Shown: positions 18,250-52,022 of the stretch, in pieces
Layout of the letters: every line of letters starts with the position of its first letter
Position numbering within the stretch: position 1 is the first letter of the stretch
Source: Pseudomonas alcaliphila JAB1
GTDB lineage: Bacteria > Pseudomonadota > Gammaproteobacteria > Pseudomonadales > Pseudomonadaceae
NCBI RefSeq assembly: GCF_001941865.1
Contig: NZ_CP016162.1
Span: 4,339,501 to 4,403,500, forward strand
DNA: 64,000 nucleotides
Direction: 5' to 3'
Made by a program: the position numbers and the translations under genes
Notes under the pieces: model-generated
The model's input: only the letters and a program-made list of their open reading frames with translations
What the model was told of the DNA's origin: nothing
The model's database searches: none

Positions 18250-18344
18250 CGCTGCAAGGACGAGGTTCACAACACCTAAAACCGGGCGGACTGCATCGAA
18301 CGTAGGCACCCGATAATGGCTTGGTGGAATGAGCACATGCAGGA

Positions 18345-18375: not shown

Positions 18376-18445
18376 ATCAAGGAAATCGGGATAAAAAGTA
18401 GTTTCGATACGTTGATCAGGCAGAAGCGCGCAACCTCCAACTCGC

Positions 18446-18742: not shown

Positions 18743-18769
18743 GTGTAACCTCCAGTTCCCTACCAGACG

Positions 18770-22317: not shown

Positions 22318-22557
22318 ACGGCCTCCATTCCATATGGTCTACCCATCCGCGTTCAGATGGCATGACGAAATCAGAATGTAACCGCCTTCACCGCTGTAGT
22401 GAATAGGCCAAACTTCCTTAGAGACCTTCGAGTGTCCACGTGGGTCGACTGCTGCGGTCAGTATCTTTGATCAGGTGGTCATGACACTACCATTCGATTC
22501 AAAAAAAACTCAGCCCTACATAACTGCCTTGACATCAGCACCAAGGAGGTTCGCCCC

Positions 22558-22887: not shown

Positions 22888-22978
22888 TCGGCCCCCTCTC
22901 CTCTCACCTCACTCGTCCGGTCGGTGCTGCGCCTCGCGCAGCGCTTTATGCCGGCTTGCATCCAAAGGAATCATCCAC

Positions 22979-23947: not shown

Positions 23948-24026
23948 CCGCCTACCTCATCCACCCCATAACGCCCGATCCGCCTCGTCGCTGGTCGGGC
24001 GTTTCTATTTCCGCAAGGTGAACGCA

Positions 24027-25028: not shown

Positions 25029-25119
25029 TTTCCATCTCTTTCACCCTTCCCTCCCCTTGGCCAGTCCATGCAGTTCACGCTGCATGGACTGGCCTTTTTT
25101 CATTTCCAGGAGAACCATC

Positions 25120-26070
25120 ATGCTCAAAGGTTTGGCTATCACCCCGCCGGTGCTCGGACGCATCTCCATCGGCAAGGTCATCGAGAAGAACGGCAAACGC
25201 CTGCCGGAAAAGGATGACCAGTTCACCATCACCTCCCAGGTGCAAGGCAAAGACGGCTGGCTGCTGCACCCGCTCAATGACGAGCTGCGCCAGGGCAAGG
25301 ACGACAAACTGCGCAGCATCCCGGTACGTCTGCTGTTCAACGAACCGGAGCTGAATTTCCGCGCCGACTACACCCTGTTCGACCGCCAGTCCGGACGGCC
25401 GCTGTGCGTCGGCAATGGCAAGACCTGCAAGCGCATCACTCAGGACGGCATGCAGTCGCTGCCCTGCCCTTCACCCGATGCCTGCTCGCTGGCCAAAGGC
25501 AATGCCTGCAAGCCCTACGGTCGACTGAACGTGGTCATCGGCGATGACGATCCATTAGGCAGCTTCGTGTTCCGTACCACCGGTTTCAACAGCATCCGCA
25601 CCCTGGCGGCTCGTCTGCATTACTTCCAGGCCATCTCCGGCAACCGCCTGGCGTGCCTGCCGCTGGAGCTGCGCCTGCGCGGAAAGTCCACCCGGCAAAG
25701 CCATGGAACACCGATCTTCTACGTCGACCTGACGGTACGCGGCGGCCTGGACATGGCCGAGGCGCTGCTGGCCGCCCATGAGCTCGATGCGCAGCGGCAA
25801 GCCGCAGGTTTCGATCAGGCCGCGCTGGATGAAGCGGCGCAGCGTGGCTTTGGCAATGGCGCCTTCGAGGACAGCGAGGAAGACGCGGGCGCCGTCGCCG
25901 AGGAGTTCTACCCCGCCGAGGAAAGCCCATCTCCAGCCACCAACACTCCCCAGCGCTCGGCGAAAGCCAGCCTGGCCGAGAAGCTGGACGCACAAGCCCA
26001 GCGCCATACCCCACCGACAGATCACCATCAAGGAGCCCAACATGCGCCTGCACAAGCTGAAGGCCAGTGA
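25120..26070 (+). CDS. Recombination-directionality-factor-like protein
   Basis: A 316-residue protein often annotated as hydrolase or metal-binding protein on mobile elements. Its N-half resembles the phage Gp3-like recombination directionality factors: MLKGLAITPPVLGRISIGKV, CVGNGKTCKRI and a set of cysteines (CPSPDACSLAKGNAC) that may bind metal. The C-terminal 90 residues are acidic and low-complexity. It starts 91 bases after the nuclease gene behind CCAGGAGA. Family membership is recalled, not computed; an unrelated DNA-metabolism role is possible. Confidence 0.6.
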   Translation: MLKGLAITPPVLGRISIGKVIEKNGKRLPEKDDQFTITSQVQGKDGWLLHPLNDELRQGKDDKLRSIPVRLLFNEPELNFRADYTLFDRQSGRPLCVGNGKTCKRITQDGMQSLPCPSPDACSLAKGNACKPYGRLNVVIGDDDPLGSFVFRTTGFNSIRTLAARLHYFQAISGNRLACLPLELRLRGKSTRQSHGTPIFYVDLTVRGGLDMAEALLAAHELDAQRQAAGFDQAALDEAAQRGFGNGAFEDSEEDAGAVAEEFYPAEESPSPATNTPQRSAKASLAEKLDAQAQRHTPPTDHHQGAQHAPAQAEGQ

Positions 26071-29765: not shown

Positions 29766-29792
29766 GAGCGCAAAATGGCGCTCTTTTATTTT
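29766..29792 (+). terminator. Terminator-like hairpin upstream of the methyltransferase
   Basis: GAGCGC (29766-29771) and GCGCTC (29778-29783) form a 6-bp stem with loop AAAATG, followed by TTTTATTTT. It lies 25 bases before the methyltransferase ATG. It would block read-through from the left and argues against the longer start at 29775, which lies inside the stem. Confidence 0.65.
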
Positions 29793-29816
29793 CCCCTTGG
29801 CGTGTTGGCTAGCTCA

Positions 29817-31403
29817 ATGAATCACAAGGATTCAATCCCGGTCATCGACCTCTTTGCGGGGCCAGGTGGACTCGGAGAGGGATTCTCTTCCATCGGCGGT
29901 CATGAAAAGGGAACACGCAAGTTCAAGCTTCGTGTCTCGATCGAGAAGGATCCAGTCGCTCACGCGACACTCTCCCTACGCGCGCTGTTCCGCGCCTTTC
30001 CGAAAGGCGAAGCGCCTGAAGCTTACTACCAGTACACTCGGGGCGAGATTACCCGTGAAGAGCTGTTCAGGCATCCGGACGTCCCGGCGGAAGCTGTGGA
30101 AGCCTCGCAAGAGGCAAAGCTCGCGGAGCTTGGCAAGGATTCACATGAGGACATCGACCGTTGGATCAGTGGAGCCTTGAGTGGCGCAAATGAATGGGTT
30201 CTCATCGGCGGTCCACCGTGCCAGGCATACTCGGTAGCCGGCCGCGCCCGTCGGACCCGCGAGACCTTGGAGGAATTTGAGAGCGACGAGAAGCACTTTC
30301 TATACAAGGAATACCTGCGGATTATTCGCGAGTTCAAACCAACAATCTTCGTCATGGAGAACGTAAAAGGCATCCTGTCCTCGCAACACAGTGGATCGCA
30401 CATCTTCCAACAGATTCTCGAAGACCTTTCGAGTCCCGCAGGAGATCTTTCGTACCGCATCCGCTCCTTTGTCGTCGCTGACGAAGCGGAAAACTTGGAT
30501 CCGCACGACTTCATCATCCAAGCCGAGCGCTACGGTCTCCCACAGGCACGACACCGAGTTATATTGTTCGGTGTTCGCTCTGATGTCGCATCGAACTGTC
30601 CCGCATTGCTGGAGCGTCCTCACAACCTGGTGCTGGAACCCAGTCAAACGGCGTTTACCGTTGACCAAGCCTTATCGGGACTCCCCCCACTGCGTAGCAA
30701 GATTTCAAGGGGAGGAGACTCCCTTGAATCTTGGCTTGCAGCATTGGATGAGGCCAGCTCTATCCTTTTTCGCTCTTATGTAGCCGGTCGAGGTGATCTA
30801 ATAGATACCATTCGAACTGCAGCGCTCGACGCACAGCGATTGAACTCAAACGGCAGTCGGTACATATCTTGGAACGTAGCTCCAAAGATGAGTCCCAAAC
30901 AACGGGAGTGGTTCCTCGACCCCAGGCTTGGGGGAGTCCTGCAGCATGAGGCAAGGAGTCATATGCGCTCTGACCTGCATAGATATATTTTTGCTGCAAG
31001 CTTCGCAAAGCTTTACGGAACCTCCCCGAAAATACATCAGTTCCCCGAGCAACTCCTGCCAGCTCATGAGAACGTTTCTTCCGCCTCAGTCCCCTTCAGT
31101 GACCGTTTCAGGGTTCAAATGGCGGATGGCCCATCTACGACTGTTGTTGCTCACATAGCCAAAGATGGCCATTACTACATACACCCCGATCCGAGTCAGT
31201 GCCGGAGCTTGACTGTTCGCGAAGCTGCACGACTGCAGACCTTCCCTGACAATTACTTCTTCGAAGGTAACAGAACACAGCAGTACACACAGGTCGGAAA
31301 CGCTGTGCCGCCACTTCTAGCTCGGAAAATCGCAGCTATCGTTGCAGCGGTCATCGACTCTTATCGGGCAGGGAAAACTCGCCAAAAATTGCAGGGCCTC
31401 TGA
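29817..31403 (+). CDS. DNA (cytosine-5) methyltransferase
   Basis: A 528-residue C5 methyltransferase. Motif I (VIDLFAGPGGLGEGF), motif IV with the catalytic cysteine in GGPPCQAYSVAGR (about C135), motif VI ENVKG, motif VIII QARHRVILFG and motif X VGNAVPPLLARKI are all intact. The target-recognition region between VIII and X is long (about 190 residues). Recognition sequence unknown. It converges on the vsr gene, and their 3' ends overlap by 53 bases. It probably protects host DNA from the restriction-like operon on the opposite strand and creates the T:G mismatches that Vsr repairs. Confidence 0.93.
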   Translation: MNHKDSIPVIDLFAGPGGLGEGFSSIGGHEKGTRKFKLRVSIEKDPVAHATLSLRALFRAFPKGEAPEAYYQYTRGEITREELFRHPDVPAEAVEASQEAKLAELGKDSHEDIDRWISGALSGANEWVLIGGPPCQAYSVAGRARRTRETLEEFESDEKHFLYKEYLRIIREFKPTIFVMENVKGILSSQHSGSHIFQQILEDLSSPAGDLSYRIRSFVVADEAENLDPHDFIIQAERYGLPQARHRVILFGVRSDVASNCPALLERPHNLVLEPSQTAFTVDQALSGLPPLRSKISRGGDSLESWLAALDEASSILFRSYVAGRGDLIDTIRTAALDAQRLNSNGSRYISWNVAPKMSPKQREWFLDPRLGGVLQHEARSHMRSDLHRYIFAASFAKLYGTSPKIHQFPEQLLPAHENVSSASVPFSDRFRVQMADGPSTTVVAHIAKDGHYYIHPDPSQCRSLTVREAARLQTFPDNYFFEGNRTQQYTQVGNAVPPLLARKIAAIVAAVIDSYRAGKTRQKLQGL

Positions 31404-31812
31404 TCCAAGCGGACAGCATATCGGGAAAGGCTTCCAATGCCTGAGAGTCTCGGGTCAGACATTCCCACACAACGACAACTCGCCAACCTGCCTCTGCCAA
31501 CGCAATCTGCGCCCTTAGATCCCTCTCGACATTAGCCTCGAACTTTCTCCGCCAGAACTCGGTGCGAGTGGAAGGGATCTTTGCCTTGGAACAACCTTGA
31601 TGCATATGCCAAAAGCATCCGTGCACAAAAAGCGCGACCTTCCACTTGGGAAGAACGACATCGGGGACTCCGGGCAAGTCCTTCCTATGCAACCTGAAAC
31701 GATAACCCGCCTTGAAAAGGACGCGACGTACAAGCATCTCTGGCTTGGTGTCCTTTCCCCGTATTCCCGACATCATTCGGCTGCGGATCAGTGTATTGAC
31801 TACATCTGTCAC
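31351..31812 (-). CDS. vsr: Very-short-patch-repair endonuclease Vsr
   Basis: A 153-residue Vsr nickase, which cuts next to T:G mismatches formed by deamination of 5-methylcytosine. Key residues are all present: D51 in GVPDVVLP, H64 in LFVHGCFWHMHQGC, and H69 with H71 nearby. It uses a GTG start that overlaps the AIPR stop codon by 4 bases, making it the last gene of the six-gene minus-strand operon. Its final 53 bases overlap the convergent methyltransferase gene, an unusually intimate dcm-vsr pairing. Confidence 0.93.
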   Translation of the reverse strand: MTDVVNTLIRSRMMSGIRGKDTKPEMLVRRVLFKAGYRFRLHRKDLPGVPDVVLPKWKVALFVHGCFWHMHQGCSKAKIPSTRTEFWRRKFEANVERDLRAQIALAEAGWRVVVVWECLTRDSQALEAFPDMLSAWIRGPAIFGEFSLPDKSR

Positions 31813-33593
31813 AGTCCCCCCCGACGCGCCTCCGGAATATCAATGGAAGGGGCAGAGAATGGCCGGGAGAACATGGCCTCTCGACACTCTGGACGCTTCG
31901 CCCATTCAGAGATCATTCTGCCGTTAGAGGTCTCATGAAGCCGATCATTGATCTCCCGAACCCAGATTTCAATCTGCTCAACAAGCTGAGGAGATACACC
32001 TTGTCTACTCCAGATCCGTTCGAGATCAAAAGACTCGCCGTAAGTTTTTGAAACCAACGCAACAGAGTAAGCAGTAACGTTGGCAAGAAAGGCTGGTACC
32101 AATGGCCGCGCCGCCTTATGGACTGCTTTGAAAAGTAATGCTTTCGAGACAATAGCCTTGAAATAGGCAACATCAGGAACGAAAGCCTTCCCTTCAGCTT
32201 CCACTTCAGCCATGCCAGACATGAATCGATCAAAGCACTTCTGTGCACCAAGACTGACAACGTCAGCTTGGCCATCCCACGCCATGAGGTATTTTGCCAA
32301 CTCGGTTTTTGTAATTTTCCTCGAGGTTGGTACAGATTCCTTCAGCGCGCGGAGTTTGGCAGGGGTCACGCCCTCTCGGGCAAGAAGAGTGTTGTAACTG
32401 CCTGCCGCCCTCTCATAGAACCAGCGCCCAGTACCGTCAGGGCAGTAGACCGAGAGCGACAACCGCTCAATATCGACATGAAACGGTTTATTGGCAGACA
32501 GGTCTGATTGACGCACAGAATTCTGACTATTTGCATATCGCGATATATCGGAAACAAGAGACTCCTCTTTTGAAGGATCCTCCTCTTTCATGACGATGAT
32601 TTTGGCTGGCACGCGAACCTTGCTCAGATCCGTATCTGCATATTTTTTCTTGGCAAAGAAAATTGACGCAGTAGTCTGGCCGCCATTAACGATTTGCATC
32701 CCCCGCAACCAAACTATGCCAGGTGAACCATCTGCGGCACGGTCAAGTCGCATTTCATCAGCGACCAATACAATTCCGTTGTTGTATGCCATGAATCTTT
32801 CCGGGGCATTCCTGAGAGTATTCTGGAGCCCTGCATTCACGCCCCGGGCCTTCACGCTCAAGAATGAGCGGACATTGGCCTCAAGTAGACGAGAGCCAAA
32901 TTTCTCATAGACAAACCGAAGCGCCTCACCTGGAATTGCAGTCAGTGCGTAGTCATAGTCCCCGGTGTCACCTGGCACAAAGACACAGGGTAGTGGGGAA
33001 CCAGATACCTCATTGAAGTCAACGACAAGCTCATCACGTGGCTTACCTTCGGAGCGATGCCGAAATAGCCGTTCGATGTCCATGACTTCAAGCTTCACGT
33101 ACTTTCCACCAACGTCTCGGGCTTTGAAACTCTTCGACTTAGCTATGCCGTCCGTGAGTACGTAGACACGAACCTGTTCAAGCCCGTCGTAAATTTCCCG
33201 AATCGTCAGCGCAAGGGAGTGGACATCGCTTGACGGATCCAGCTTATCGGCGATACGCCCCGCTGCGCAGAGCTCCAAGAAGCGAACACACTGAGCCGCC
33301 GCCGTCTTCACGTCTTGGTCGGGTATCGGCTTCAGGCCTTCGAAACCCTCGTAGAGACTCACAAAAAGGTCAAGCTGGTCGGCCTCTTCAGACATGGCAT
33401 AGCCGCTCAAGCGCAGATTCGCATTGCCTACCTTCCCTTGAAAGTGACAGACGACCGGCTCGAAGGTCATTCCGGCATCAACGAGGTGCTGCATCACTAC
33501 TTCAGAGAAAACGAGCTCAGCAAAGGGGGATCCGTCGCTCATCTGAGCCGCGATCTCGCCCCTGGTCTCAGCGAAGAATTCGTCAAGCGTCAT
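31809..33593 (-). CDS. AIPR-family protein
   Basis: A 594-residue protein with the AIPR (abortive infection phage resistance) domain. The hallmark segment is visible in the middle: NVRSFLSVKARGVNAGLQNTL, then FMAYNNGIVLVADE and LRGMQIVNGGQTTASIFFAK. AIPR proteins accompany restriction-like systems, but their activity is poorly defined. It overlaps the upstream DUF4420 gene by 11 bases and vsr by 4. This gene, vsr and the methyltransferase are visibly less GC-rich than the next two genes upstream in the operon. Confidence 0.88.
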   Translation of the reverse strand: MTLDEFFAETRGEIAAQMSDGSPFAELVFSEVVMQHLVDAGMTFEPVVCHFQGKVGNANLRLSGYAMSEEADQLDLFVSLYEGFEGLKPIPDQDVKTAAAQCVRFLELCAAGRIADKLDPSSDVHSLALTIREIYDGLEQVRVYVLTDGIAKSKSFKARDVGGKYVKLEVMDIERLFRHRSEGKPRDELVVDFNEVSGSPLPCVFVPGDTGDYDYALTAIPGEALRFVYEKFGSRLLEANVRSFLSVKARGVNAGLQNTLRNAPERFMAYNNGIVLVADEMRLDRAADGSPGIVWLRGMQIVNGGQTTASIFFAKKKYADTDLSKVRVPAKIIVMKEEDPSKEESLVSDISRYANSQNSVRQSDLSANKPFHVDIERLSLSVYCPDGTGRWFYERAAGSYNTLLAREGVTPAKLRALKESVPTSRKITKTELAKYLMAWDGQADVVSLGAQKCFDRFMSGMAEVEAEGKAFVPDVAYFKAIVSKALLFKAVHKAARPLVPAFLANVTAYSVALVSKTYGESFDLERIWSRQGVSPQLVEQIEIWVREINDRLHETSNGRMISEWAKRPECREAMFSRPFSAPSIDIPEARRGGL

Positions 33594-34599
33594 CCGTTAC
33601 TCCTAGTAGCTTTAAAGCCACGTCGAGGTCCACGAGAAAATCCCCGGCGTGATCAAGATTGATTTCGTAAATTGCTCTTGTGACACCAGCTGGAACGGCT
33701 CCTACCGTCAGCCGTGGAAAGCCCGCAGACACGGAGAGAGTCCGCCTCTCCTTCGACTCGAACCTTCGGGAGTATTGGCCCGCGTGGGCGTCTGAGTAGC
33801 CAGCGACCATGAGCCTTTCGTGCAGGAAGTCGATCAACTCGGGCTCACCGCCTAGACGTCGTTCGACCTCCCCAACCATCTCGGGAAGGGTCGCGCCACC
33901 CTCTCCTCTGGCGAACCTGACAGCCGCAAGGAACAGCGGCGAGGCGACTGCATCGTCCAACTGCTCCAACGAGCCAATCTTCACCGGAAAGCCGGATGAG
34001 GACATCGTCGCCTTGACCTCTATAGCCCCGTCTCCCAAAAGGAAATCCTGAGGGGCATCGTCGGGCCCAACCCAGCCTTTGAGGATCGTCTCCGGAGAAA
34101 TCCCCGCATCGAAAAGAATGCCCATGAAGAAGAGCTCTCCCGCCAGACCGAGTTCCGCCTCGGGGCTGAGAGGTCCCGCGCCGCGCGACATGAACTGCTG
34201 CCACATGCGCACCCGGCGCAGCATGGTCCGCAGAACAGCGGCCTCGCCCTCCGCCGCGCAGCCGTCCATGGCCCCGGCAACGTCGCCGACCATTTCCACG
34301 AACAGTTCGGGACTTCCCGACTCCTTCCTAGACAACGCTATCCAAGTCTTGCCATCGCCGCGAGGATCCGCCCGAACGACCTCGAACCCCCTGCCCTCGG
34401 GCAGTCGCTCGGACGAACCGAGACGGGCCGTCGGAAAGCGAGCCAGAAGAGCCTCCTCGTTACCGGGGAAGCGCCGAGCAGCCAAGAGTTCGCACTCGCC
34501 GACGGGAGTCACGGCGATACCGCGCCAGCCGCTCTCCTCCCCACTGCGTCCGGAGAGCGCCTCCCAAGCGGCGACGAACTCGTCAATTGGCCGGGGCAT
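33583..34599 (-). CDS. DUF4420 PD-(D/E)XK nuclease-like protein
   Basis: A 338-residue protein annotated in relatives as a PD-(D/E)XK motif protein (DUF4420). The nuclease core is readable: the helix glutamate in LGLAGELFFMGILFD, the acidic residue in QDFLLGDG, and the E-x-K pair in GAIEVKATMSS. It is the likely DNA-cutting subunit of the operon. Its start lies 17 bases inside the end of the Z1 gene and its end overlaps the AIPR start by 11 bases, so translation is tightly coupled. GC content is high, like the Z1 gene. Confidence 0.85.
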   Translation of the reverse strand: MPRPIDEFVAAWEALSGRSGEESGWRGIAVTPVGECELLAARRFPGNEEALLARFPTARLGSSERLPEGRGFEVVRADPRGDGKTWIALSRKESGSPELFVEMVGDVAGAMDGCAAEGEAAVLRTMLRRVRMWQQFMSRGAGPLSPEAELGLAGELFFMGILFDAGISPETILKGWVGPDDAPQDFLLGDGAIEVKATMSSSGFPVKIGSLEQLDDAVASPLFLAAVRFARGEGGATLPEMVGEVERRLGGEPELIDFLHERLMVAGYSDAHAGQYSRRFESKERRTLSVSAGFPRLTVGAVPAGVTRAIYEINLDHAGDFLVDLDVALKLLGVTDDA

Positions 34600-37459
34600 A
34601 CTCGGTCTCCCAGAGGAGGTGATCCACCTCGTACTTGACGGTCGTCGTCGAGCGACTAGCGGGGAAGCTGGCCCCGAAGGCGATAACGGGCGGGCCGTCG
34701 GCGGGCAGGTTCGCGGCGGCGGGATCGAGAGGATAAATCAACAGAAGACCTCGCTTGGGATTCCCCGGAACGCCATCGGCGCCCAGTCCGCGCACCCTCC
34801 TGACACACGGGCCGCTAGGCGACTTCGGAGGTTCCTTACCGGTGTCCTCGGTTCCTCTGGCGGGATCCTTGGTCCAAGCGGAGACCGTGAGTTCGAGAGC
34901 AGCCTGCCAGGCATCTTCTTCAAGATCGATCGACTCGTCCCTCGGCGACAGAAGTCGCCCGATGGAGTAATGCTCCCCGCCCTCCTTCGGCTTCCGGACG
35001 ACCATGTTCTCGACGGCGTACTTACCGCAGAAAACGTGTGAGGCGCCGTCGCCGCCGCCCAGAAGAACGACCGTCCAGGAGGTTAGCTCGCCACCCGCTG
35101 CCATCACTTTGACAAAGTCAGCCAGCACCGCGCTGTTTACTTTCCTGGCTGCCGGGTGAGTGAGATAGCTGGTGAAGAAGTCCACTACATGGTCGGCCGG
35201 GACGCTCTCCCAGAGGAACCCCTTCCATTCCTGGCGACCTTCGCCGCGCCGTCGGGAAATGACACCGTCGCAACAAGGGGCTCCGGCCGCCTCCAAGAGA
35301 CGTTCGGCGACGGTCAGATTCTTATCAAGGGTGGCTCTGTCTCGATGAAAGGCCACGGTCTCCAGCACCTCGCCGCTGAACGACAGTTGAAGACTCTTCG
35401 CGCTGCGCATCTTGATCGGCGAGGTGACCATCAGGACGGGGTGAGACTGGACCTTCATGCCATAGCTTTCGGGGGTCGCCTTGACCGCAGCCATGGTGTC
35501 GAACTCTTGGCGAAGCTCCTCGGCCGCGTCGGCGATGTGGCCGAACCACTCGACGAGATCGGAGGTCGTGTAAAGGCGGCACAGATCAAGGTACCCAGGA
35601 CGGTAGCCGAACCAGCGGCCCATCTGCATCAGGGTGTCGTACATCTTCGTGGAGCGCACGAAGTAGCTGACGCAGAGCCCTTCAAGAGTCAGCCCCCGGG
35701 CGAGCTTGTCGCCGCCGACGGCGATGACCTTTAAGCCGGTCTCCTCGCGCTCTGCGTAGTCAAGGACGTCCCCGGCCGAGCCGTTAATAGCCCTGACGCT
35801 GTTCGCAAGATCTTCGAGAACTTCAGGGAGCACTGCCTCGACGTCATCCCACTGGGGAAGGTCGAACTCGCCGCCCACCTCGCCCATAGCTGTCGCCACG
35901 GCGGCTGACGTTGGGACGAAGTCGGACTCCCAGAGCTCGAGCCACTCGGCCATCAACTTATCCTTCTCCGCCTGGCCGAACCCTCTCACCCGGTTGCGGA
36001 AGTGTTTCACGAGCTCGTCGACCTGGCGTCGTACCTCTTCCTGGACAGCGGTGTAGCGCGTCACGTGAATCAGCATCGAGCAGTGCCTGCGGCCCTCACC
36101 GCGCAGGACGCGGACAGCGCAGGCCAGGACAAAGACGGATACCGCCTCCCTTAGGGACGGTGGGACCTCGTCACGTCCCTCGAACATGGGCACGTGGCTC
36201 TTGTCGTGTCGGGGCGGCATCCAACCGTCCTCGCCCCAAGCGTCAATCTGATCATTCACCTCCCGGGTCAGCGGCAGGCCACCGTCTCTGCCCTCAGTCG
36301 AGCGCAGTCCGAAGACACGGGCGGGGCCAACGTAGTTCGAGGGGGCAGAGATGTTGATGATAAAGGACTGCGGGAACAGGTCAGGCCCCTCCTCCTTGGT
36401 CGCCTTGCGCCGATCAATGAAGATGTTTGCGAACGGCGTGGCGGTGTATCCGACGTAGGCCTTTCGGGAGAAAGAGTGGAGGATCTTCCGGATTCGGCTG
36501 TTGATGGCCTTGGGCTGATACTCGTCGTCCACCGTACCGTCCTTGTTCACGACTTGATCCCCGGTGTCCACCGACGCATGGTCTGCCTCGTCGTCGATCA
36601 GAAGCAGAGGGAAACCTGAAACGAGCGGACGGCCGTCGGCGTCCTTGGAATCCGCGACGTGGTTGCGAATCCATTTGAGGAGGCGGTCCAGCACCGTCTT
36701 GTTCTTCTTCACCACGAAGAGCCAGGGACGCTGCTCCGGGGAGATGGCGAGGTGCTTCGCGACCTTGGTGTTGAAATCCCCGTTGTCGGAGCGATTCGTC
36801 GCGCAGTTGGGGCGAATCTCAGCGTCGCGACCGTTCTCGCCGACTCCGATGTAGCGGACTACGTCATTCTTCGCCGAGGTCTCGTAGCCGAGGAAGCCTT
36901 CCTCCAGACGAATCTGAGTCTGCGAGCGCAGGTTGTTGTGCAGACCGGCGAGGACGATGACTATCTTGTAGCCCGCGTCGGCCGCCTTGCATATCAGCCC
37001 CGTGTAGTTGCCCGTCTTGCCTGACTGGACGTGCCCGACGACGAGCCCGCGCCGATCCCAGCATCCCTGACGCAGAGGATCTTCGAGCAGCTCCAATACT
37101 TTGTTAGTCGCGTCATCCAAGGCGTCCACGGCCTTGACGGACATCTTGCCCTCCAGGAAGTCGCGGTAGCGCTGCCAGTAGCGCCAATCCTTCCTGCGGG
37201 CGGCGGTGAGCCAGTCCTTGTGGCCGGTCTTGTCGGAGAGCGTGGAGGCCCCGCCGATCCATAGACTGAATCGACGAATGAGCTCCGCGACCACCTCCTT
37301 CCTGTCGACGCTCTCGCCCGGGGCCATGTGAGTCGCCACGAAGTCGACCTTCTCAGCTATCAGGGTCGGCGTGACCGCGCCCTTCTCCATGGCCTCGGCC
37401 AGGAACGTCTGGGCGACGCTTACGACCCGCTGAAACACCTTGCTCTGCTCTTCCGTCAT
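34583..37459 (-). CDS. Z1-domain helicase-like ATPase
   Basis: A 958-residue protein of the Z1 family, a superfamily 2 helicase-type ATPase. Walker A is VGHVQSGKTGNYTGL (142-149). The Walker B/DEAD equivalent is LLIDDEADHASVDTG, followed by VGYTATPFANIF. A C-terminal helicase motif reads LMQMGRWFGYRPGY. It overlaps the upstream GHKL ATPase gene by 4 bases (ATGA) and the downstream nuclease gene by 17. Z1 proteins are known partners of MutL/MORC-like ATPases in predicted restriction systems; here it is presumably the translocating motor. Confidence 0.9.
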   Translation of the reverse strand: MTEEQSKVFQRVVSVAQTFLAEAMEKGAVTPTLIAEKVDFVATHMAPGESVDRKEVVAELIRRFSLWIGGASTLSDKTGHKDWLTAARRKDWRYWQRYRDFLEGKMSVKAVDALDDATNKVLELLEDPLRQGCWDRRGLVVGHVQSGKTGNYTGLICKAADAGYKIVIVLAGLHNNLRSQTQIRLEEGFLGYETSAKNDVVRYIGVGENGRDAEIRPNCATNRSDNGDFNTKVAKHLAISPEQRPWLFVVKKNKTVLDRLLKWIRNHVADSKDADGRPLVSGFPLLLIDDEADHASVDTGDQVVNKDGTVDDEYQPKAINSRIRKILHSFSRKAYVGYTATPFANIFIDRRKATKEEGPDLFPQSFIINISAPSNYVGPARVFGLRSTEGRDGGLPLTREVNDQIDAWGEDGWMPPRHDKSHVPMFEGRDEVPPSLREAVSVFVLACAVRVLRGEGRRHCSMLIHVTRYTAVQEEVRRQVDELVKHFRNRVRGFGQAEKDKLMAEWLELWESDFVPTSAAVATAMGEVGGEFDLPQWDDVEAVLPEVLEDLANSVRAINGSAGDVLDYAEREETGLKVIAVGGDKLARGLTLEGLCVSYFVRSTKMYDTLMQMGRWFGYRPGYLDLCRLYTTSDLVEWFGHIADAAEELRQEFDTMAAVKATPESYGMKVQSHPVLMVTSPIKMRSAKSLQLSFSGEVLETVAFHRDRATLDKNLTVAERLLEAAGAPCCDGVISRRRGEGRQEWKGFLWESVPADHVVDFFTSYLTHPAARKVNSAVLADFVKVMAAGGELTSWTVVLLGGGDGASHVFCGKYAVENMVVRKPKEGGEHYSIGRLLSPRDESIDLEEDAWQAALELTVSAWTKDPARGTEDTGKEPPKSPSGPCVRRVRGLGADGVPGNPKRGLLLIYPLDPAAANLPADGPPVIAFGASFPASRSTTTVKYEVDHLLWETEYAPAN

Positions 37460-38991
37460 CCTGCATTCCCTTCGTCAGGCGTTGCCGCGATATCCGGGAG
37501 GCTCGCGACGAGATTTGGGTAGATCTGAAAAGGCTCCGTAGAGGACAGGGCTCTGACGGCCGCCTCCGGACTCATGCCGCGCCGCCCGATCATGTCCCGG
37601 AACAGGGTCAGAAGCACGATCTTGACGCCGTCGGGGGCCGTCTCGGCCTCTCCCGAGAAGCCGGTTCTCGGGGTGTCCTTGTTCTCGGCAGTGTCGAGCC
37701 ATATCCGCTGAACGGGGACAGTCTCCTCCACAACCCGGAGCATCGCCCGGACAAGGTCAGCTTTGTCACCAACCGACTCTATGACTGCAGCTACCGCCGG
37801 ATGCCCCTCATCAATGCGGTAACGCACACCGCCTTTGAGCCTGTCGACACGCCATGCTTGTTGCTCGACCTTGAGGCCGCCCGGCCCGGGCATTGGCGCA
37901 CCACGAAAGGCAAAGACCCTTCTAGCTCTTTCTCGAGTATCCTCAGCCAACTTGGTAAGCCATGGGCGCACTGTTACAGGTGGCCGTGCGGTTGACTTCT
38001 TGACATCAATTTTCCAGGTGGAGTCAGCAGTGTTGGGGATATCCAACCTGATTCTGGCGAGCCGCTGAGGCTCCTCCCGATTCCACGAGCGCCCCTGCCC
38101 AAGCCCAAGCCACCCTCCTGCCAGAAGCAAACGGCGGTTCCGGTATACGTAAAAGCCCTGCTGGGATGTCCACCCTTCTGGCCCGCCTGCTTTAAGGTAT
38201 TCGTCCTCGGAGATCCGATCTTTGTGTGGCAGAACATGGCATTGAGCCTCAACTAGACCGGACGGAGTGATAATCTGAGCGACCGGTGATTGCCACGGTT
38301 TCGCAGGGTGGCCTGTCATGAAGGGATCCCAAGGGCTCACCAATCTGTCGTTGATGAACAGCCGAAAAATCGGGTTTGGCCCTTCTAGCAAACGATGGAA
38401 GACCATTGCCAAACGTAGCTCTACGTCGTCGACCAAGTCCGCAAAGTGGTCGAGGTCATAGCCGGGAGTAACAATGCGATCCAATCGTTCCCAGAGGACG
38501 ATCGTTCCATGGCAGAGAGTCTCGATTGGCTCAACGAACGCATCGGAACCAAAGGCCGGCCCCTCAAACATCTTCCATCCACCGTCCTGCGATGCCGCAA
38601 TGGCATCGAGATCCCAACGCAAACAGGAAACGGGGCCATCCATCCTTCTGGATGCGACAGTAAGACAGCGGCATTGAGAGAAGGAGGCAGTTTTCAAGCC
38701 CATCCCGAAACGACCGAGATCAGTGGGTGCGCGCTCATCAAGAGGACTCTTGGCACCAAGAGTCATGGCAGTCTCCAGTTCGGCGTCGTCCATTCCACGG
38801 CCGTTGTCCAAGATGGATATCCGGCTTTCCTGCCCATCCCATTCAAATTTCACACGAACCACTGTTGCCCCAGCTGACACGCTGTTATCAATCACATCTG
38901 CCAAAGCAGCTGCTGTTGAGTAACCGAGGCCACGCAGGGCTTCCAGCATCGCCCCTGCTCGTGGCGGAGCAAATCGGGTTCTCACGTTCAT
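37456..38991 (-). CDS. MORC/MutL-like GHKL ATPase
   Basis: A 511-residue GHKL ATPase. The nucleotide-binding motifs are complete: ALADVIDNSVSAG (N box, N36), ILDNGRGMDD (62-68) and DLGRFGMGLKTASFSQ (91-105). Bacterial MORC/MutL-like ATPases of this kind are predicted DNA clamps or loops controlled by ATP-driven dimerisation and sit in restriction-type operons with Z1 proteins. The start overlaps the sigma-factor stop codon by 4 bases and the end overlaps Z1 by 4 bases. Confidence 0.9.
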   Translation of the reverse strand: MNVRTRFAPPRAGAMLEALRGLGYSTAAALADVIDNSVSAGATVVRVKFEWDGQESRISILDNGRGMDDAELETAMTLGAKSPLDERAPTDLGRFGMGLKTASFSQCRCLTVASRRMDGPVSCLRWDLDAIAASQDGGWKMFEGPAFGSDAFVEPIETLCHGTIVLWERLDRIVTPGYDLDHFADLVDDVELRLAMVFHRLLEGPNPIFRLFINDRLVSPWDPFMTGHPAKPWQSPVAQIITPSGLVEAQCHVLPHKDRISEDEYLKAGGPEGWTSQQGFYVYRNRRLLLAGGWLGLGQGRSWNREEPQRLARIRLDIPNTADSTWKIDVKKSTARPPVTVRPWLTKLAEDTRERARRVFAFRGAPMPGPGGLKVEQQAWRVDRLKGGVRYRIDEGHPAVAAVIESVGDKADLVRAMLRVVEETVPVQRIWLDTAENKDTPRTGFSGEAETAPDGVKIVLLTLFRDMIGRRGMSPEAAVRALSSTEPFQIYPNLVASLPDIAATPDEGNAG

Positions 38992-41612
38992 TTGACGTAG
39001 GTATTTCCTAAATGAAGGGCAAATCCGGCATTCATGAGTTTCCGGGCAATACTGCGAATAGCGGCATCTGACCGTGCCGAAAAAGACACGCGGATCTGTC
39101 CGCCATGGAGACGAGCGTCCTCTACCGTAAGCCCTAACATTCGAGCCTCTTCGAGAAGCTCGGAAAGCAGCTCATATTGACGCTCGGATACTGCCTCAGG
39201 GCTTCTCGGCGACACAGGCTGCTCGCCCGATTGGAAAACATCCTTCAGCGGATCAGCGAGCTGTTGATCACACGTCACCTCTCGAGCATGCCTATCTTCG
39301 GGCGATTGTGGCATTTCCGCTGAGGAGGAAGGGGGTGCGGGGGGAAGCTTCCACTCAAATTGATCGCCCATGTACAGGGCAAGTTTTTCTTTCCTTGCAG
39401 GGGTGGATAATTTCCCCAAGGCTTTTGATTCTATTTGTCGAATTCGTTCGCGAGTAACATTGAATCGAAGCCCCACCTCCTCCAAAGTCATGGGCTCCTC
39501 GCCCCCAAGACCAAAGCGAAGCTTTATTACCTCAGCGGCACGCTCATCAAGGCTACCAATAACGTTGAGAATGAGCTCCCGAAGAGAGTCCTCCTCAACT
39601 GCAGGAGCAGGATCCGAAGTCTCAAACTCCACCAAGGTGTCGATACGAGGAAGTCCAGTATCTCTGCTGACCTCATCCAAGGAGACGACATCATCAAAAG
39701 CTGCCAGGAAAAATCTGATTTTATCGATGGGTATCCCCATCCGACGCGACGTCTCGATTTCGGTTTCAGGGCGCCCTGTCTTGTTTTCATATAGCGCCCT
39801 CTGGCGCAGGATAGGCAAGGCGTCTTTGTGAACGTGCACCGGAACACGAATGGTCCTAGCCTTGTTGTCTATTGCGCGAGATATCTGCTGACGGATCCAC
39901 CACATTGCATAAGTGGAAAATCTAAATCCCTTTCGCCAGTCATAGCGCTCAACGGCCTTGATCAGACCGATATTCCCCTCCTGCACCAGATCATCGAAGG
40001 GAAGCTCAGACCACATATATTTCCTGGCAGTGGAGTACACCAAGCGCAGGTTAGCGAGGATCATCCGCTCCCTTGCACCGACCTGGCGCCGAACTGCAGA
40101 TACGAAAGTCTCGCCCGCCGGGTCGGCTGCTTTACGTGCAAGCTCTAACAGGAAGCCTCTTGAAAGGCACGCAGCTGCAAGTGCTGAGCGCACTCGGACT
40201 TGATCTCCGCCCGCAGATCTTGCTGCGGAGATTGCGGAGAGGAAAGCTGCCCCCTTTGGATCAGAGGCTACTTCTTCATCTTTTTCAGCATCGTCCTCAA
40301 TTGCCGCCGACCCAATGCTCTCCTCATCTCCCTCACCTGGCGCAATCTCGGAACTAAATATTCCATAATCAGCTTCTCCACGAGCAACCCTATCAGCAGC
40401 CTCGAAAACCATAGAAAGGCCCGCGGGCCAGCCAGAAAGAGCGTCCAGCGCCTGAGCCCCGGCCTCCTCCATCTCACGTCCCAAAGAAATTTCTTCTTCG
40501 GCCCGAAGCAGGTCAGCTTTGAGTCCTTTGACGTAGTATCGCAAAGGGTCGTTGCGACCGGATGCCAGGTCCTCCGCAAACTCCAGGGCCTCAACTAATA
40601 ACAGCTCCTCTTCGGCCGTTGGCTCAGTCAGATCCGACTGATAAGCCCACGCCCCGGATTCGTCGATCACCACACCCAGATCGCCCAAAACAAAGGCCAG
40701 CAATCGCTCAGACTCTTCGTTGCGACAGTCGTCAGCCCCTCGACAGACCTCGATAAGATCGGCTTCGGATACAGCACCCTCACGCAGCGCCCGGAGTAGC
40801 AAACCACGGACGCCTTCGCCCTCGTCATGCGCCAACGGAAGCGCCCTGACGGGGAGGAACAGGTCAATGTCGTCCCATTCCACATCAGTATCGATAGCTT
40901 TGTGCCGACCGATCACTTCCTGAAGTGCACTGGTTCCCTTGGCAACGGTATCGTCACCCTTCGGGGCAACCGCCTCCGGCTCCGCTAACCAGTCGCTTTC
41001 AAATCCAGACTCAAGAGGTTCGTCGTCAATATCGATGAGGTTTGACAGCCTCCCCATAACGACGGGTAATGCTTGTTTGACGGTGAGCGACTCCTCCACA
41101 TTCAGAAAAGGCCCTTCACCAGAGGTAGAGGATCTAGGAATGAAACGGCCATCAACCTCAGCCACTTTTTTGAGCTGAGTTTCCATACAGACCGGCTCAT
41201 CCTCCGCTTTGCAGGAATCAAACTCTCTAGAGAGGGAGACCTGAGAGGTATCTGCCTTTGTGGCATTGGCCTGGGTTGACTCAGCCGGCAGGGACGAAGC
41301 CTCTCCGGGCACCTCGCTCTCTTTTATCGGGTCCAGAACATCCAGAGCATTTCGCAGCAGAGCGATACATTCAGAACATCCCCCCTTCTCCGCGTAGGCC
41401 AGGGTGCTAACCCCTTGAGAGTCGAGCAGTTCCGGATTGGCTCCAGCAGTCAAAAGAAGCCGCACAACACCCTTTTTTCTTCTTGCGGCGGCAAGCATAA
41501 GAGGAGTGGCGCCGGCGTTGTCCCGGGCGTTTAGGTCATCGCCCCTAGCGATATGGAGCTTGACAGCAACCTCAACGCCAGCAATCGACGCCATGCGGAG
41601 TAAAGGGTTCAT
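38988..41612 (-). CDS. Ankyrin-repeat/RpoD-like sigma70 fusion protein
   Basis: An 874-residue protein with an unusual architecture. Residues about 5-90 form two to three ankyrin repeats (NARDNAGATPLMLAAARRKK; ANPELLDSQGVSTLAYAEKG). An acidic linker follows. At about 268-318 there is a region resembling sigma 1.1, then sigma 1.2 (DPLRYYVKGLKADLLRAEEE, from 355), a short NCR-like segment, and region 2 (about 515-595) with NLRLVYSTARKY, DLVQEGNIGLIKAVERYD and FSTYAMWWIRQQISRAI. Region 3 follows, then region 4.2 (about 705-735) with MTLEEVGLRF and VTRERIRQIESKALGKL, nearly identical to housekeeping RpoD. A 120-residue C-terminal extension is unrecognised. It is the first gene of the defence operon, coupled by a 4-base overlap to the GHKL ATPase. 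ATG 41612 is chosen; a GTG six bases earlier is equally possible. Confidence 0.88.
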   Translation of the reverse strand: MNPLLRMASIAGVEVAVKLHIARGDDLNARDNAGATPLMLAAARRKKGVVRLLLTAGANPELLDSQGVSTLAYAEKGGCSECIALLRNALDVLDPIKESEVPGEASSLPAESTQANATKADTSQVSLSREFDSCKAEDEPVCMETQLKKVAEVDGRFIPRSSTSGEGPFLNVEESLTVKQALPVVMGRLSNLIDIDDEPLESGFESDWLAEPEAVAPKGDDTVAKGTSALQEVIGRHKAIDTDVEWDDIDLFLPVRALPLAHDEGEGVRGLLLRALREGAVSEADLIEVCRGADDCRNEESERLLAFVLGDLGVVIDESGAWAYQSDLTEPTAEEELLLVEALEFAEDLASGRNDPLRYYVKGLKADLLRAEEEISLGREMEEAGAQALDALSGWPAGLSMVFEAADRVARGEADYGIFSSEIAPGEGDEESIGSAAIEDDAEKDEEVASDPKGAAFLSAISAARSAGGDQVRVRSALAAACLSRGFLLELARKAADPAGETFVSAVRRQVGARERMILANLRLVYSTARKYMWSELPFDDLVQEGNIGLIKAVERYDWRKGFRFSTYAMWWIRQQISRAIDNKARTIRVPVHVHKDALPILRQRALYENKTGRPETEIETSRRMGIPIDKIRFFLAAFDDVVSLDEVSRDTGLPRIDTLVEFETSDPAPAVEEDSLRELILNVIGSLDERAAEVIKLRFGLGGEEPMTLEEVGLRFNVTRERIRQIESKALGKLSTPARKEKLALYMGDQFEWKLPPAPPSSSAEMPQSPEDRHAREVTCDQQLADPLKDVFQSGEQPVSPRSPEAVSERQYELLSELLEEARMLGLTVEDARLHGGQIRVSFSARSDAAIRSIARKLMNAGFALHLGNTYVK

Positions 41613-42159
41613 AGTCACGTGCGTGCCACCCTCATACACGCGCTCCCGCAACAATAGCTTGGGAAATGGATTTGCTGCATACGACTATTTTCAGGGGTGA
41701 CTCCTTGTCCATGGTCCAGTCCCAAACGGCATGAAAAGTCGTACTCACCCTCACGGGTAAACGGACTCAGGCCGAACAAGGGCGACGCAAAATCGACGCG
41801 CCCAGTCGGGAGATGAAGCGGGTTAGCGGCTATCCCTGACGCCACTGCGGCCCTCCATGATGATACTGCGGTCACAATATCCACCGGTCTTATTTGGGTA
41901 AAGCCTGAGAGGCGGCTGGCCAGTGTTTTTTTGTACATCTGTACATATTTCAGCCAGCGACTCAGGCAGCTTGTACTTCGCGATGCCGCCAGCCGCGGTG
42001 ACGCAGACAGTAATCGCCCCACTTGCTCGCAAAGAAAACCGCCTGACAATGGGCACTGATGTTGGGCTGCCCATTCTTGACCACCACACTCAACGAGCAA
42101 CCTGAAAGATATGTCGCGCGACTGGACACACCAATAGTGGGCGTTCATACAGGTCAAGT
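41613..42159. other. Divergent intergenic region, no recognised gene
   Basis: About 550 bases between the sigma-factor start and the dyad near the WYL gene. A 180-codon frame on the minus strand (from 42157) has no recognisable features and runs into the sigma gene in another frame. The promoters of the sigma-headed operon and possibly of the WYL gene should lie here; no convincing -35/-10 pair was found by eye for the sigma gene. Confidence 0.5.
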
Positions 42160-42248: not shown

Positions 42249-43124
42249 ATGAAACGCAAGCAATCAATCGAGTCCGTGCGCTGGGATCTGGCCCTGCGCT
42301 ATCGCCTCATCGAGACAGTGGCCTGGTGGGAAGGCCGCCTGACCACCAATCACTTGATGCAGAGCTTCGGCATCAGCCGCCAGCAGGCGTCGAAGGACAT
42401 CAACACCTACATCAGCGAACACGCGCCGAAGAACCTCGAATATGACAAGCATTTGAAAGGGTACGTCCCGAGCCGCCGCTTCCAACCGCTGTTCATCGAC
42501 GACAGCGCCAGCGCCTATCTGCACCTGCTCAACCAGAACCATGAGCGCGCCCCGCATATCGAGGGCCTGGCACTGGCCTATGCACACACAGAGGTACTGG
42601 CAGTGCCGGATCGCTCGGTAAGGCCGGAAGTGCTGCGCCCGCTGCTCAAAGCCTGCCGAGAGGGGCTGCGCCTGGAGTGCGAGTACGTGTCCTTCACCAC
42701 ACCCGATGGCGAAACCCGCCTGATCGCCCCGCACACCCTGGTTTACACCGGCATGCGCTGGCATGTGCGGGCCTATTGCGAGAAGAATCGGGATTATCGT
42801 GACTTCGTTCTGAGCCGCTTCCGGGGCATACCGGAACTGATGGATGATCCGACCGATCACGGCCGCGAGAGTGATCCGGGCTGGGCCACATCACTGCCGG
42901 TGATCATCGAGCCCGACTCGCGCCTGAAACCAGAACAACGCGCCATCATCGAGGCCGACTACGGCATGCAGGATGGCCGGCTGGTAATCGAAACCCGCGG
43001 CGCTCTGGTGCAATACGTGCTGCAGCGCTATCAGATCGACCCGACCAAGGTGCATGCCAAGGCGACGGCGCAGCAGATTGTCGTCGCCAACCTGGATGAA
43101 CTGCAGCCGTGGCTGTATCACTGA
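42249..43124 (+). CDS. WYL-domain (BrxR/CapW-like) transcriptional regulator
   Basis: A 291-residue regulator with an N-terminal winged helix (about 15-75; TNHLMQSFGISRQQASKDINTYI), a WYL domain (about 130-205; LECEYVSFTTPDGETRLIAPHTLVYTGMRW, HVRAYCEKNRDYRDFVLSRF) and a C-terminal WCX-like part. This layout and size match the BrxR/CapW repressors that control BREX, CBASS and other defence loci. It is divergent from the sigma-headed operon and preceded by an extended dyad. The usual tryptophan-tyrosine-leucine core reads RWHVRAY here. Repressor function is inferred. Confidence 0.85.
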   Translation: MKRKQSIESVRWDLALRYRLIETVAWWEGRLTTNHLMQSFGISRQQASKDINTYISEHAPKNLEYDKHLKGYVPSRRFQPLFIDDSASAYLHLLNQNHERAPHIEGLALAYAHTEVLAVPDRSVRPEVLRPLLKACREGLRLECEYVSFTTPDGETRLIAPHTLVYTGMRWHVRAYCEKNRDYRDFVLSRFRGIPELMDDPTDHGRESDPGWATSLPVIIEPDSRLKPEQRAIIEADYGMQDGRLVIETRGALVQYVLQRYQIDPTKVHAKATAQQIVVANLDELQPWLYH

Positions 43125-44724: not shown

Positions 44725-46269
44725 CTACAGTGGCATCGCGGGCGGGCAGTTCCATGGCAACAGCGCGTTGTAATCCTCGACGCTATTGGCCTGCGGCAGG
44801 CGTTCGAGGACATAGCGCAGCCAGGCGTAGGGTTCCTGGCCGTTGGCCTTGGCGGTTTCCACCAGGCTATAGAGTTGGGCGCTGGCGGTCGCGCCCTTGG
44901 GCGTGTCGCTGAACAGCCAGTTCTTGCGGCCGATGACGAAGGGCCGGATCGCGCGCTCGGCGGCGTTGTTGTCGATCGGCAGGTGGCCAGCCTCGATGTA
45001 GCGTTCGAGTCGGCTCCAGTTGCGGGCCAGGTAGCTCAGTGCCTTGCCCAAGGCATTCTGCGCCGTAACCTGGGGCTGGGTTTTCTCCAGCCAGGTCTTG
45101 AGCTGCTCAAGGAGTGGCTGGCTGTGCTGTTGGCGGCCCCGGTGACGCTGCTCATCGCTGGCATCCTTGAGTTCGCGCTCGATGCCGTAGAGCTTGTTGA
45201 TCAGCCCCAGTGCGATGTCGGCACGCCCGGTTTTACCCTTGGGTTGCACCTTTTGCGCCTCGATAAATTTACGGCGCGCATGCGCCCAGCAGGCCAGACG
45301 TTCGATACCGTCCTGTGCGGCCACGGCGTTGTAGCCGGCGTAATCATCGGTCATCAGGTAGCCACGATAACCATCGAGCAGGCGCAGTGGCACCTCCTGC
45401 GCACGGCTGGTTGTGTAGTCGAAGAGGATCACCGGCTTGTCTGGTGGGCCGCCGGTCTGCACCCACATCCAGGATTGGCTGCTCGGGTCGCGCTCCGGCT
45501 CTTTGAGCACCTGCACGCGGGTTTCGTCGCAGTGGATCACGGGGCTGTCCAGCAGCGTGTCGCGCATCAGGTTGAGCACAGGCTGCAACTGCTCGCCGCA
45601 GCGGATCACCCAACGCGCCAGGGTCTGCCGGGGGATGTCGATACCGTGACGGCTGAGCACTTTCTCGAAGCGATACAGCGGCAGGCCATCGGCATATTTG
45701 CTGGTCAGCAGCATGGCCAGCACGCTGGGGCTGGCCAGGCTTTTCTCGAGCAGTTGGGCCGGCTTGTCGGCGGTCACCGGGGCGGTTTCGCAGCCCTGGC
45801 AGGCGTAGGTCTTGCGAACGTGCCGGATCACCCGGATTTGCATCGGGATGATGTCCAGTTGCTCGCTGGTTTCCTCGCCAATGACCTGCTTGCGGCAACC
45901 GCAGGCGCAGGTCAGTTCATGCTCTGGCAGCTCATGGGTGACCACCAACCGCGGCAACTCGGCCGGCAGCGGCGTGCGCTTGCCCCGGCGCTTGGTCGGT
46001 GCGCCGGCGTCTTCCTCGACCGCATCGACCGGTGCTTCAGGCGTCGCTTCGGCCAGGCTTTCCGCTTCGTTGAAGATCTCCAACTGCGGTGAGTCCGGGT
46101 CGCTGCTCTGCTCGGATTTACGGCCAAATAGGCGCTGGATCAGCAGCGCATTTTGTTCACGCAACCGCTCGATCTGACCGTCCTTTTCTGACATCTGCAC
46201 GCTCGCCGACAGCAGCAACTGCTTGAGCAAAATCGGGTCGTCAGGAAGGGTTTCGGGCATGGAAATCAT
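44725..46269 (-). CDS. tnpC: IS66-family transposase TnpC
   Basis: A 514-residue DDE transposase. It has an N-terminal coiled leucine-rich segment ([20 protein letters not shown]), a cysteine-rich zinc-binding region ([17 protein letters not shown]) and the catalytic domain. The catalytic domain shows [22 protein letters not shown] and [22 protein letters not shown], typical of IS66. The frame is intact. tnpB ends 18 bases upstream. Confidence 0.95.
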
Positions 46270-51047: not shown

Positions 51048-52022
51048 ATGACAGCTGTTGTCGGCATCGACATTGCCAAACAAACATTCGACATCGCGAC
51101 CCTGCAAAGCAACGGCAAGTACCGCACGAAGGCCAAATTGCCGAACGATCTCAAAGGGTTTGAGACGCTACAGCAGTGGTTGCTCAAGCACGCAGAGCCC
51201 CAGGCCTGGATCGTGATGGAGGCCACGGGTATCTATCACGAAGCGCTGGCCGAGTGGCTGTTCAAGCAAGGTTACCGCGTCTGTGTGCTCAACCCGGCCC
51301 AGCCGGCCTTCTATGCCCGTAGCCAGTTGCAGCGAGTGAAGACGGACAAGGTCGATGCCAAGCTGCTGGCCGACTATGGCAGTAGGCATCTGGCTGAGCT
51401 GCGCAGCTGGCAGCCAGAGGCTCCTGAGATTCGTCGTTTAAGAGCTCTGGTGCACCGTTTGAAAGATATTCAGGAGCTGGAGCAGATCGAGCGCAATCGC
51501 TTGGAGAGCACCCAGGAAAGCAAGGTCAGAGTCTCGATTCAATCGGTTCTCGATCATTTGAAAAAGCAGACCGATGAAACATTGAAAGCGATCAAGCAGC
51601 TCTTCGATGACAACGATGACCTGCGTGGCAAGCGAGACCTGCTGACCAGCATCGACGGTATCGCCGACAGAACCGCTGCGCTGTTGCTGGCTGAGTTGGG
51701 CGATATTCAACGCTTCAACAGCAGCAAAGCGGTCACCGCTTTTTCCGGCCTCAACCCCAGGTTGCAGGAGTCGGGTAAGCACAAGGGACATGTGCGAATT
51801 TCGCGCATGGGTCCAGCCCGTTTGCGTGCAGGTCTTTATATGCCAGCCGTCTCGTCCCTGACTCACAACCAGGCCATTCGAGAAATGGGCGAACGTATGA
51901 AAGCCAAGGGCAAAGCCGGCAAGCAGATCGCCTGCGCGGCTATGCGTAAGCTGCTGTGTATCGCTTATGGTGTGCTGAAATCTGGTCGGCCTTTTGATCC
52001 AGCACTTGCTATTGCGAGGTGA
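51048..52022 (+). CDS. IS110-family transposase
   Basis: A 324-residue IS110 recombinase. The RuvC-like DEDD residues appear in VVGIDIAKQTFD, VMEATGIYHEAL and KTDKVDAKLLADY. The C-terminal domain has FSGLNPRLQESGKHKGHVRISRMG with the probable serine nucleophile, then ARLRAGLYMPAVS. GAGGAGAAAGCG precedes the ATG. The frame is intact. It sits between an apparently truncated gene and IS21 remnants. Confidence 0.92.
   Translation: MTAVVGIDIAKQTFDIATLQSNGKYRTKAKLPNDLKGFETLQQWLLKHAEPQAWIVMEATGIYHEALAEWLFKQGYRVCVLNPAQPAFYARSQLQRVKTDKVDAKLLADYGSRHLAELRSWQPEAPEIRRLRALVHRLKDIQELEQIERNRLESTQESKVRVSIQSVLDHLKKQTDETLKAIKQLFDDNDDLRGKRDLLTSIDGIADRTAALLLAELGDIQRFNSSKAVTAFSGLNPRLQESGKHKGHVRISRMGPARLRAGLYMPAVSSLTHNQAIREMGERMKAKGKAGKQIACAAMRKLLCIAYGVLKSGRPFDPALAIAR

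Follow-up and report, generated by a model that had tools for sequence, protein, structure and literature searches.

MzaA of a divergent MZA anti-phage operon in Pseudomonas alcaliphila: sequence comparisons suggest a swappable sigma adaptor

The gene described in this report, mzaA, lies in a stretch of 64,000 nucleotides of Pseudomonas alcaliphila JAB1 (contig NZ_CP016162.1, positions 4,339,501 to 4,403,500; RefSeq assembly GCF_001941865.1), here called the window. A single frame encodes ankyrin repeats followed by a linker, then an RpoD-like sigma factor with regions 1.1 to 4, and finally a C-terminal extension; its product, judging from sequence, belongs to a divergent MZA (mzaABCDE) anti-phage system as the first subunit. 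MzaA has already been named as a defense-system sigma factor, with its role unexplained in the literature searched. New here is the near invariance, among 82 MzaA sequences, of the residues that read the -35 element, of the main residues touching core polymerase and of most -10 contacts. The comparisons support the identity of the gene, the gene order, the conservation of promoter and core-binding determinants, and a division into constant and exchangeable modules: a constant linker core, an exchangeable sigma half, ankyrins, an optional C-terminal part and a sigma-less counterpart. This module map provides a basis for telling an adaptor, a regulator and a decoy apart, and it suggests that the sigma part acts as an exchangeable adaptor and not as an ordinary gene switch. 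The value of the finding lies in the unexplained sigma role and in the module exchange found here.

Five genes of the window match, in order, MzaA to MzaE of both PADLOC and NCBIfam, and the NCBIfam MzaA model carries the title “MZA anti-phage system associated sigma-70 family RNA polymerase sigma factor”; the initial annotation, which knew of no described system with such a part, is corrected on this point, and its interpretation as a whole finds partial support. All five proteins score below the NCBIfam cut-offs, which are naming thresholds and not a definition of the MZA system (489.5/800, 734.3/850, 1230.3/1500, 345.4/420 and 917/1050 for MzaA to MzaE), so that they fall short of the strict equivalog test and are assigned to a divergent MZA branch. 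In a tree of 33 MzaC rows, which does not include L139 because that locus lacks MzaC, the window and the E. coli MZA fall in one clade of 12 of the 33 rows (support 100/99), indicating common descent. The closest MzaA relatives of the window genome are from Pseudomonas, the annotated MZA form is carried by E. coli ET745, and DNA of the window's MzaC was matched in 55 of 5426 E. coli genomes. The system was reportedly first described by Gao et al. in 2020. It is called validated in the portion of PMC9523054 that was available, and Mza systems in Pseudomonas islands are counted, and only counted, in the available portion of PMC12629846. Among the open-licence papers listed by the searches, none dealt with the mode of action of MZA or MzaA.

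The mzaA frame lies on the minus strand (41612..38988, 874 amino acids from ATG 41612); it is open from TTG 41654 (888 amino acids), followed by GTG 41618 and ATG 41612 as inner starts, and the plus strand across 38988-41612 contains many stops. The initial annotation had described a single frame in which a C-terminal extension follows ankyrins, linker and regions 1.1 to 4, had quoted the motifs VTRERIRQIE and WWIRQ, and had placed a 4-base overlap between the stop codon and the start of a GHKL ATPase gene. All of this was borne out: both motifs are in the translation, and the overlap with mzaB reads ATGA, as it does in the E. coli operon. The domain search that it had proposed returned Ank_2 (7.8e-9), Sigma70_r2 (2.5e-21) and Sigma70_r4 (9.4e-17) from Pfam, and nothing at E<=0.1 for regions 1.1, 1.2, 3 and the non-conserved region (NCR) when the window protein was searched alone. 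A profile of 76 chosen relatives, aligned to the RpoD of P. aeruginosa (7xya_F; E 1.6e-125), did bring them out: the alignment has two pieces, 5-260 and 314-616, the first of which covers regions 1.1, 1.2 and the NCR (55.5 bits, i-E 3.6e-14). In addition, hhalign placed MzaA residues 269-751 on RpoD 10-614. The last ~60 residues of the C-terminal extension are filled in 34 of 53 aligned close relatives, including the window; the extension is missing from E. coli MzaA. A survey of operon context, likewise proposed, found MzaA directly before MzaB in 9/9 loci and the two genes overlapping in 7/9 (not L133 and L134), a count that is biased because most loci were retrieved through MzaB or MzaC (L011 through MzaA).

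Conservation of the sigma half was scored in the 82 MzaA sequences aligned with the window genome's own RpoD, in E. coli numbering, with residues assigned to -35 reading, -10 reading and core contact according to what we take to be their roles in sigma-70. R584, E585, R586, R588, Q589 and E591 of the -35 set are each present in 82/82. The -10 set is kept almost as strictly (F427 and W434 in 82, Y430, W433 and Q437 in 81, R436 in 80), as are the core contacts D403 (82/82), Q406 (82/82) and N409 (81/82). Less well kept are E420 (1/82, with D in 81) and T432 (64/82, with M in the window). MzaA thus has the regions 1.1 to 4 of RpoD with conserved promoter and core contacts, the exceptions lying in region 1.2, parts of regions 2.3/2.4 and the finger of region 3.2, and its sigma half looks functional. 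Region 2 identity to RpoD is 42/73 in the window protein versus 20/73 in L120, the most eroded member. The window MzaA misses the curated RpoD cut-offs (NF004208, 287.9/555; TIGR02393, 231.9/354), and its genome has a separate RpoD, so MzaA is not the sole housekeeping sigma factor.

Between the ankyrins and region 1.1 lies a linker of ~60 residues with two tryptophans, W210 and W248, found in 76/76 sequences of alignment A2. Since A2 was chosen by eye (76 of 240 listed proteins plus the window, leaving out RpoD-like matches and the members without an ankyrin match, P0010, P0148, P0149, P0166 and P0167), this count is of chosen members. The linker model also matches five MzaA beyond A2 and does not match L120, giving 81/82, and a strict text pattern for the two tryptophans is found in 77/82. 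Mean identity is 45% in the linker versus 18% in the variable stretch preceding it. When the linker hidden Markov model was run on 2558 open reading frames of 33 loci (E<1), it matched six MzaA, by construction because it had been built from MzaA, and only three other proteins, all of them the MzaX described below. In genome searches in which no more than 15-16 first-look candidates were scored for each genome, the model was found in 3/398 genomes of the genus and 2/369 of the class (the window genome being in both), always at Mza loci. Among the outcomes that the initial annotation had named as overturning its view were an ordinary chromosomal sigma factor and an assembly artifact. The former is rejected, no linker match outside Mza loci having been found in these searches, and an artifact is unlikely, given a 90%-identity protein cluster of 75 member sequences and the operon in all nine loci. 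A contig scan with another alignment, A1 (29 of 121 proteins, at least 700 amino acids long and under 72% alike), returned 80 loci and mostly retrieved sigma genes of other kinds, since these too have the pattern GFRFSTYA; L011 was used as MzaA and 78 as loosely chosen sigma genes, eight of which are in the sigma tree under our label RpoS-like.

In related operons L115-L117 the first gene encodes a shorter protein, for which we use the name MzaX, followed by a cytosine methylase gene (PF00145 in L115 and L117; L116 judged by eye) and then MzaB. Pfam gave no domain over cut-off on two MzaX, and a protein search with MzaX returned 51 proteins. The MzaX profile is colinear with the MzaA linker and 1.1-like region (score 45.6, E 8.6e-5, against an MzaA profile that did not contain L120). 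Chance likeness was considered and rejected: 100 column shuffles scored at most 31.0, and an RpoD/RpoS-type profile scored 17.7 against MzaX. In the MzaC tree the 12-row clade comprises the MzaA and MzaX loci, with the MzaX loci inside a 7-row fork that has four MzaA rows (95/98). The linker seems to survive in the sigma-less MzaX of operons nested among MzaA operons, and the simplest reading of the tree is one gain of the sigma part and one loss in the MzaX line. Among the 398 genus genomes, 19 have MzaC, of which four have MzaA (one being the L120 chimera), three MzaX and 12 neither. A predicted MzaX model (mean predicted local distance difference test [pLDDT] 72.6, predicted template modeling score 0.31) has a confident C-terminal domain at residues 251-328 (block pLDDT 85-96) in which helices and strands follow one another as in a winged helix. 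The C-terminal domain of two EH_Signature proteins (L149 and L150) resembles this end of MzaX; EH_Signature is also found in ZorC. A short MzaX-like gene remnant lies at L148:1483-1737 (-); its genome gave no MzaC match at E<=1e-100. In L138, a Bacteroidota plasmid operon, a DUF3883 protein replaces MzaA ahead of MzaB; the first gene can thus encode other proteins as well.

The sigma half of MzaA appears to be exchangeable. In L109 (genome G199), the seven best matches shown for the ankyrins, linker and 1.1-like domain are MzaA; RpoD has neither ankyrins nor linker, and the comparison is therefore meaningful for the 1.1-like part alone. For regions 1.2 and NCR the best match is the RpoD of the same genome (53%), followed by 37% for the next of 14 RpoD sequences. 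L109 passes two RpoD cut-offs (586.8/555 and 357.7/354) and groups in the tree with the G199 RpoD (98/86), inside RpoD of the same class (98/95). The two G199 genes are on different contigs and differ in sequence. Regions 1.2-4 of L109 resemble that host's own RpoD. L120 is a chimera of another kind, with residues 1-115 that are 85% identical to Pseudomonas MzaA and a remainder with ~34% identity to RpoD-type proteins, that is, the same Pseudomonas-type ankyrins on a different remainder. Subunits also reassort, as indicated by identities between the window and G573 (MzaA 54%, MzaB 81%, MzaC 84%, MzaD 76%) that differ from those between the window and G561 (MzaA 70%, MzaB 86%, MzaC 54%).

The reading that we favor, tentatively and with a little less than even confidence, is that MzaA is an adaptor through which the Mza machine docks on RNA polymerase at RpoD promoters. 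The sigma half would bind core RNA polymerase and RpoD-type promoters, and the constant core, consisting of the two-tryptophan linker and the region-1.1-like domain, would tie MzaA to the ATPase/nuclease machine of MzaB-E; since loss or replacement of the sigma half leaves these two elements in place (L120 being the exception), they most likely face MzaB-E. A candidate contact on the other side, by correlation only, is the MzaB segment EET[VI]PVQ[RQ]IW[LI]DT[AT]E, a pattern drawn after the fact that is found in 11/11 clade rows and E. coli and in 0/16 others, with near forms in L135, L121 and L136. Transcription initiation complexes on incoming DNA might be where the machine is delivered or what arms it, and the ankyrins might dock a further partner or sense it. 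The methylase and Vsr genes next to the operon suggest that self is marked off from non-self, as in restriction-modification relatives. That MzaA binds polymerase, that it is coupled to MzaB-E and that phage DNA is targeted are steps that we infer. If the adaptor reading is true, immunity would be steered by the transcription machinery itself.

Several observations weigh against this reading. In the sigma half, M102 is kept in 1/82 MzaA, R103 in 9/82, Y425 in 2/82 (F in 77), T440 in 34/82 and R423 in 54/82, and the 3.2 finger of the window protein is identical to that of RpoD at 3/25 positions. L120 has no detectable linker, yet it precedes MzaB-E. The hhalign probability for MzaX and MzaA is only 60%, single MzaX sequences match the linker model weakly (E 5e-5, 0.0077 and 0.075), the reverse search, with a linker model from MzaX, finds the window (0.034) and L119 (0.11) and nothing else, and the genome searches, with their few candidates per genome, left the MzaX genomes below threshold. 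A search for segments of MzaB-E exclusive to the MzaA/MzaX clade found none. Region 2 of L109 ties with several RpoDs at 90% and its regions 3-4 favor the own RpoD only narrowly (64.6 versus 63.3%), so the link to the host rests on the NCR and the 98/86 branch, and an approximately unbiased test on regions 2-4 (L120 and P0182 left out) did not reject a single MzaA clade (p 0.104).

We consider it unlikely that MzaA instead works as an alternative sigma factor for transcription of the mza operon, perhaps also of the methylase and Vsr genes, once a phage has disabled the host sigma factor, with the ankyrins acting as sensor or as dock for an anti-sigma factor. Such a role would fit a complete sigma factor with its promoter-reading residues kept, a gene that is first in its operon, and an upstream candidate promoter, TTTAC(C/G)-17-TATTGT, shared by the window, L119 and L120, though not by L011. 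However, the candidate promoter is of the ordinary RpoD type, an RpoD-derived sigma half such as that of L109 would yield no distinct promoter set, closely related MzaX operons do without any sigma factor, no MzaA or MzaX is seen in 12 of the 19 genus genomes that have MzaC, and the WYL gene is a likelier switch. A promoter scan gave one site versus 0.5 expected. The shared promoter provides one hint on regulation, and two others are a leader frame and an inverted repeat. The leader frame (MDKES..., 26 amino acids, 41712..41632, minus strand) overlaps the mzaA start out of frame in the window; by eye, a leader-like MDK frame is present in L119 and, in frame with mzaA, in L120, and not in L011. 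The perfect inverted repeat TGTACAGATGTACA at 41945..41932, between the WYL gene and mzaA and found in the window only, is a possible operator.

Ankyrins often bind proteins, and this counts toward another explanation, in our judgment slightly less likely still: phage proteins that attack the host sigma factor would bind MzaA, an RpoD mimic serving as decoy or guard, and so set off the Mza effectors. A mimic would have to look like RpoD, as the sigma half does, and in L109 it is similar to the RpoD of its own host; MzaA also diverges faster than MzaB and MzaC between the window and G573. Against this, the DNA-reading residues (the -35 helix and W433/W434), for which a decoy has no obvious need, are as invariant as the core contacts, and the sigma-less MzaX occupies the place of MzaA in sister operons. 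That MzaA is a passenger, a captured sigma factor without a role in protection, would agree with the many related MzaBCDE operons without MzaA and with its presence in only a few related systems (PMC9523054, in the portion available), but is very unlikely given its place directly ahead of MzaB in 9/9 loci, overlapping in 7/9 (most loci having been found via MzaB/C), and the conserved linker and sigma residues.

Coordinates of the operon, its neighbors and the modules of MzaA are collected in Table 1. Elsewhere in the window, a HamA-domain gene followed by a DEAD/Helicase_C gene at 18770-22317 (-) forms a pair that we take to be Hachiman-like. Genes for a phage-type integrase (17044), DUF932, YqaJ and Gp3-like recombination directionality proteins lie at 17044-26070 (+), and the gene content suggests that the defense genes of the window belong to an integrative element. 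Transposases of IS66 (44725-46269) and IS110 type (51048-52022) lie on the right-hand side of the WYL gene.

Table 1. Features at the mza locus, in window positions; MzaA residue numbers count from GTG 41618
Feature	Position	Strand	Remarks
DNA cytosine-5 methyltransferase (Dcm type)	29775..31403	+	convergent with operon
Vsr endonuclease	31351..31812	-	overlaps mzaE end; PF03852, 6.9e-28
mzaE, AIPR-family protein	31809..33593	-	
mzaD, PD-(D/E)XK (DUF4420) protein	33583..34599	-	
Third operon gene, between mzaB and mzaD	34583..37459	-	
mzaB, GHKL (MutL/paraMORC-like) ATPase	37456..38991	-	ATGA overlap with mzaA
mzaA, ankyrin and RpoD-like sigma factor	38988..41612	-	874 amino acids from ATG 41612 (GTG 41618, TTG 41654 possible)
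MzaA C-terminal extension domain	38991..39173	-	residues 816-876; optional in family
MzaA sigma region 4	39375..39566	-	residues 685-748; -35 reading helix VTRERIRQIE
MzaA sigma region 3	39579..39842	-	residues 593-680; poorly conserved 3.2 finger
MzaA sigma region 2	39843..40097	-	residues 508-592; core binding and -10 reading (predicted)
MzaA sigma region 1.2 and remnant of NCR	40119..40556	-	residues 355-500
MzaA sigma region 1.1-like domain	40644..40817	-	residues 268-325
MzaA conserved two-tryptophan linker	40833..41006	-	residues 205-262; shared with MzaX
MzaA ankyrin repeats	41331..41609	-	residues ~4-96
Candidate operon promoter TTTACC-17-TATTGT	41874..41902	-	weak, read by eye; not among promoter-scan sites
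WYL-domain regulator	42249..43124	+	divergent from operon; candidate repressor

The locus resembles the paraMORC restriction-modification-like neighborhoods of Iyer et al. 2008 (PMC2292703) in its combination of GHKL ATPase, helicase, nuclease, cytosine methylase and Vsr; the words “sigma factor” and “ankyrin” are missing from the available main text of that paper. The Type II systems of PMC9523054, as far as that source was available, are alike in their core proteins and AIPR, with ~20% identity to mzaBCDE, and unlike the window only a few of them have mzaA. MzaA itself is like the group 1 factor RpoD in that regions 1.1 to 4 are colinear, the -35 helix is identical and so are most contacts to the -10 element and to core polymerase, and differs from it in being fused to ankyrins and a linker and in its diverged finger and NCR. 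The E. coli MZA (L140) has the same five genes in the same order, an MzaA with ankyrins, linker and sigma-70, and the ATGA overlap between the first two genes. In contrast, the window proteins lie below the NCBIfam cut-offs, the window MzaA has the C-terminal extension, and the window operon adjoins methylase and Vsr genes, whereas no such gene is annotated in the 19.7 kb of E. coli sequence.

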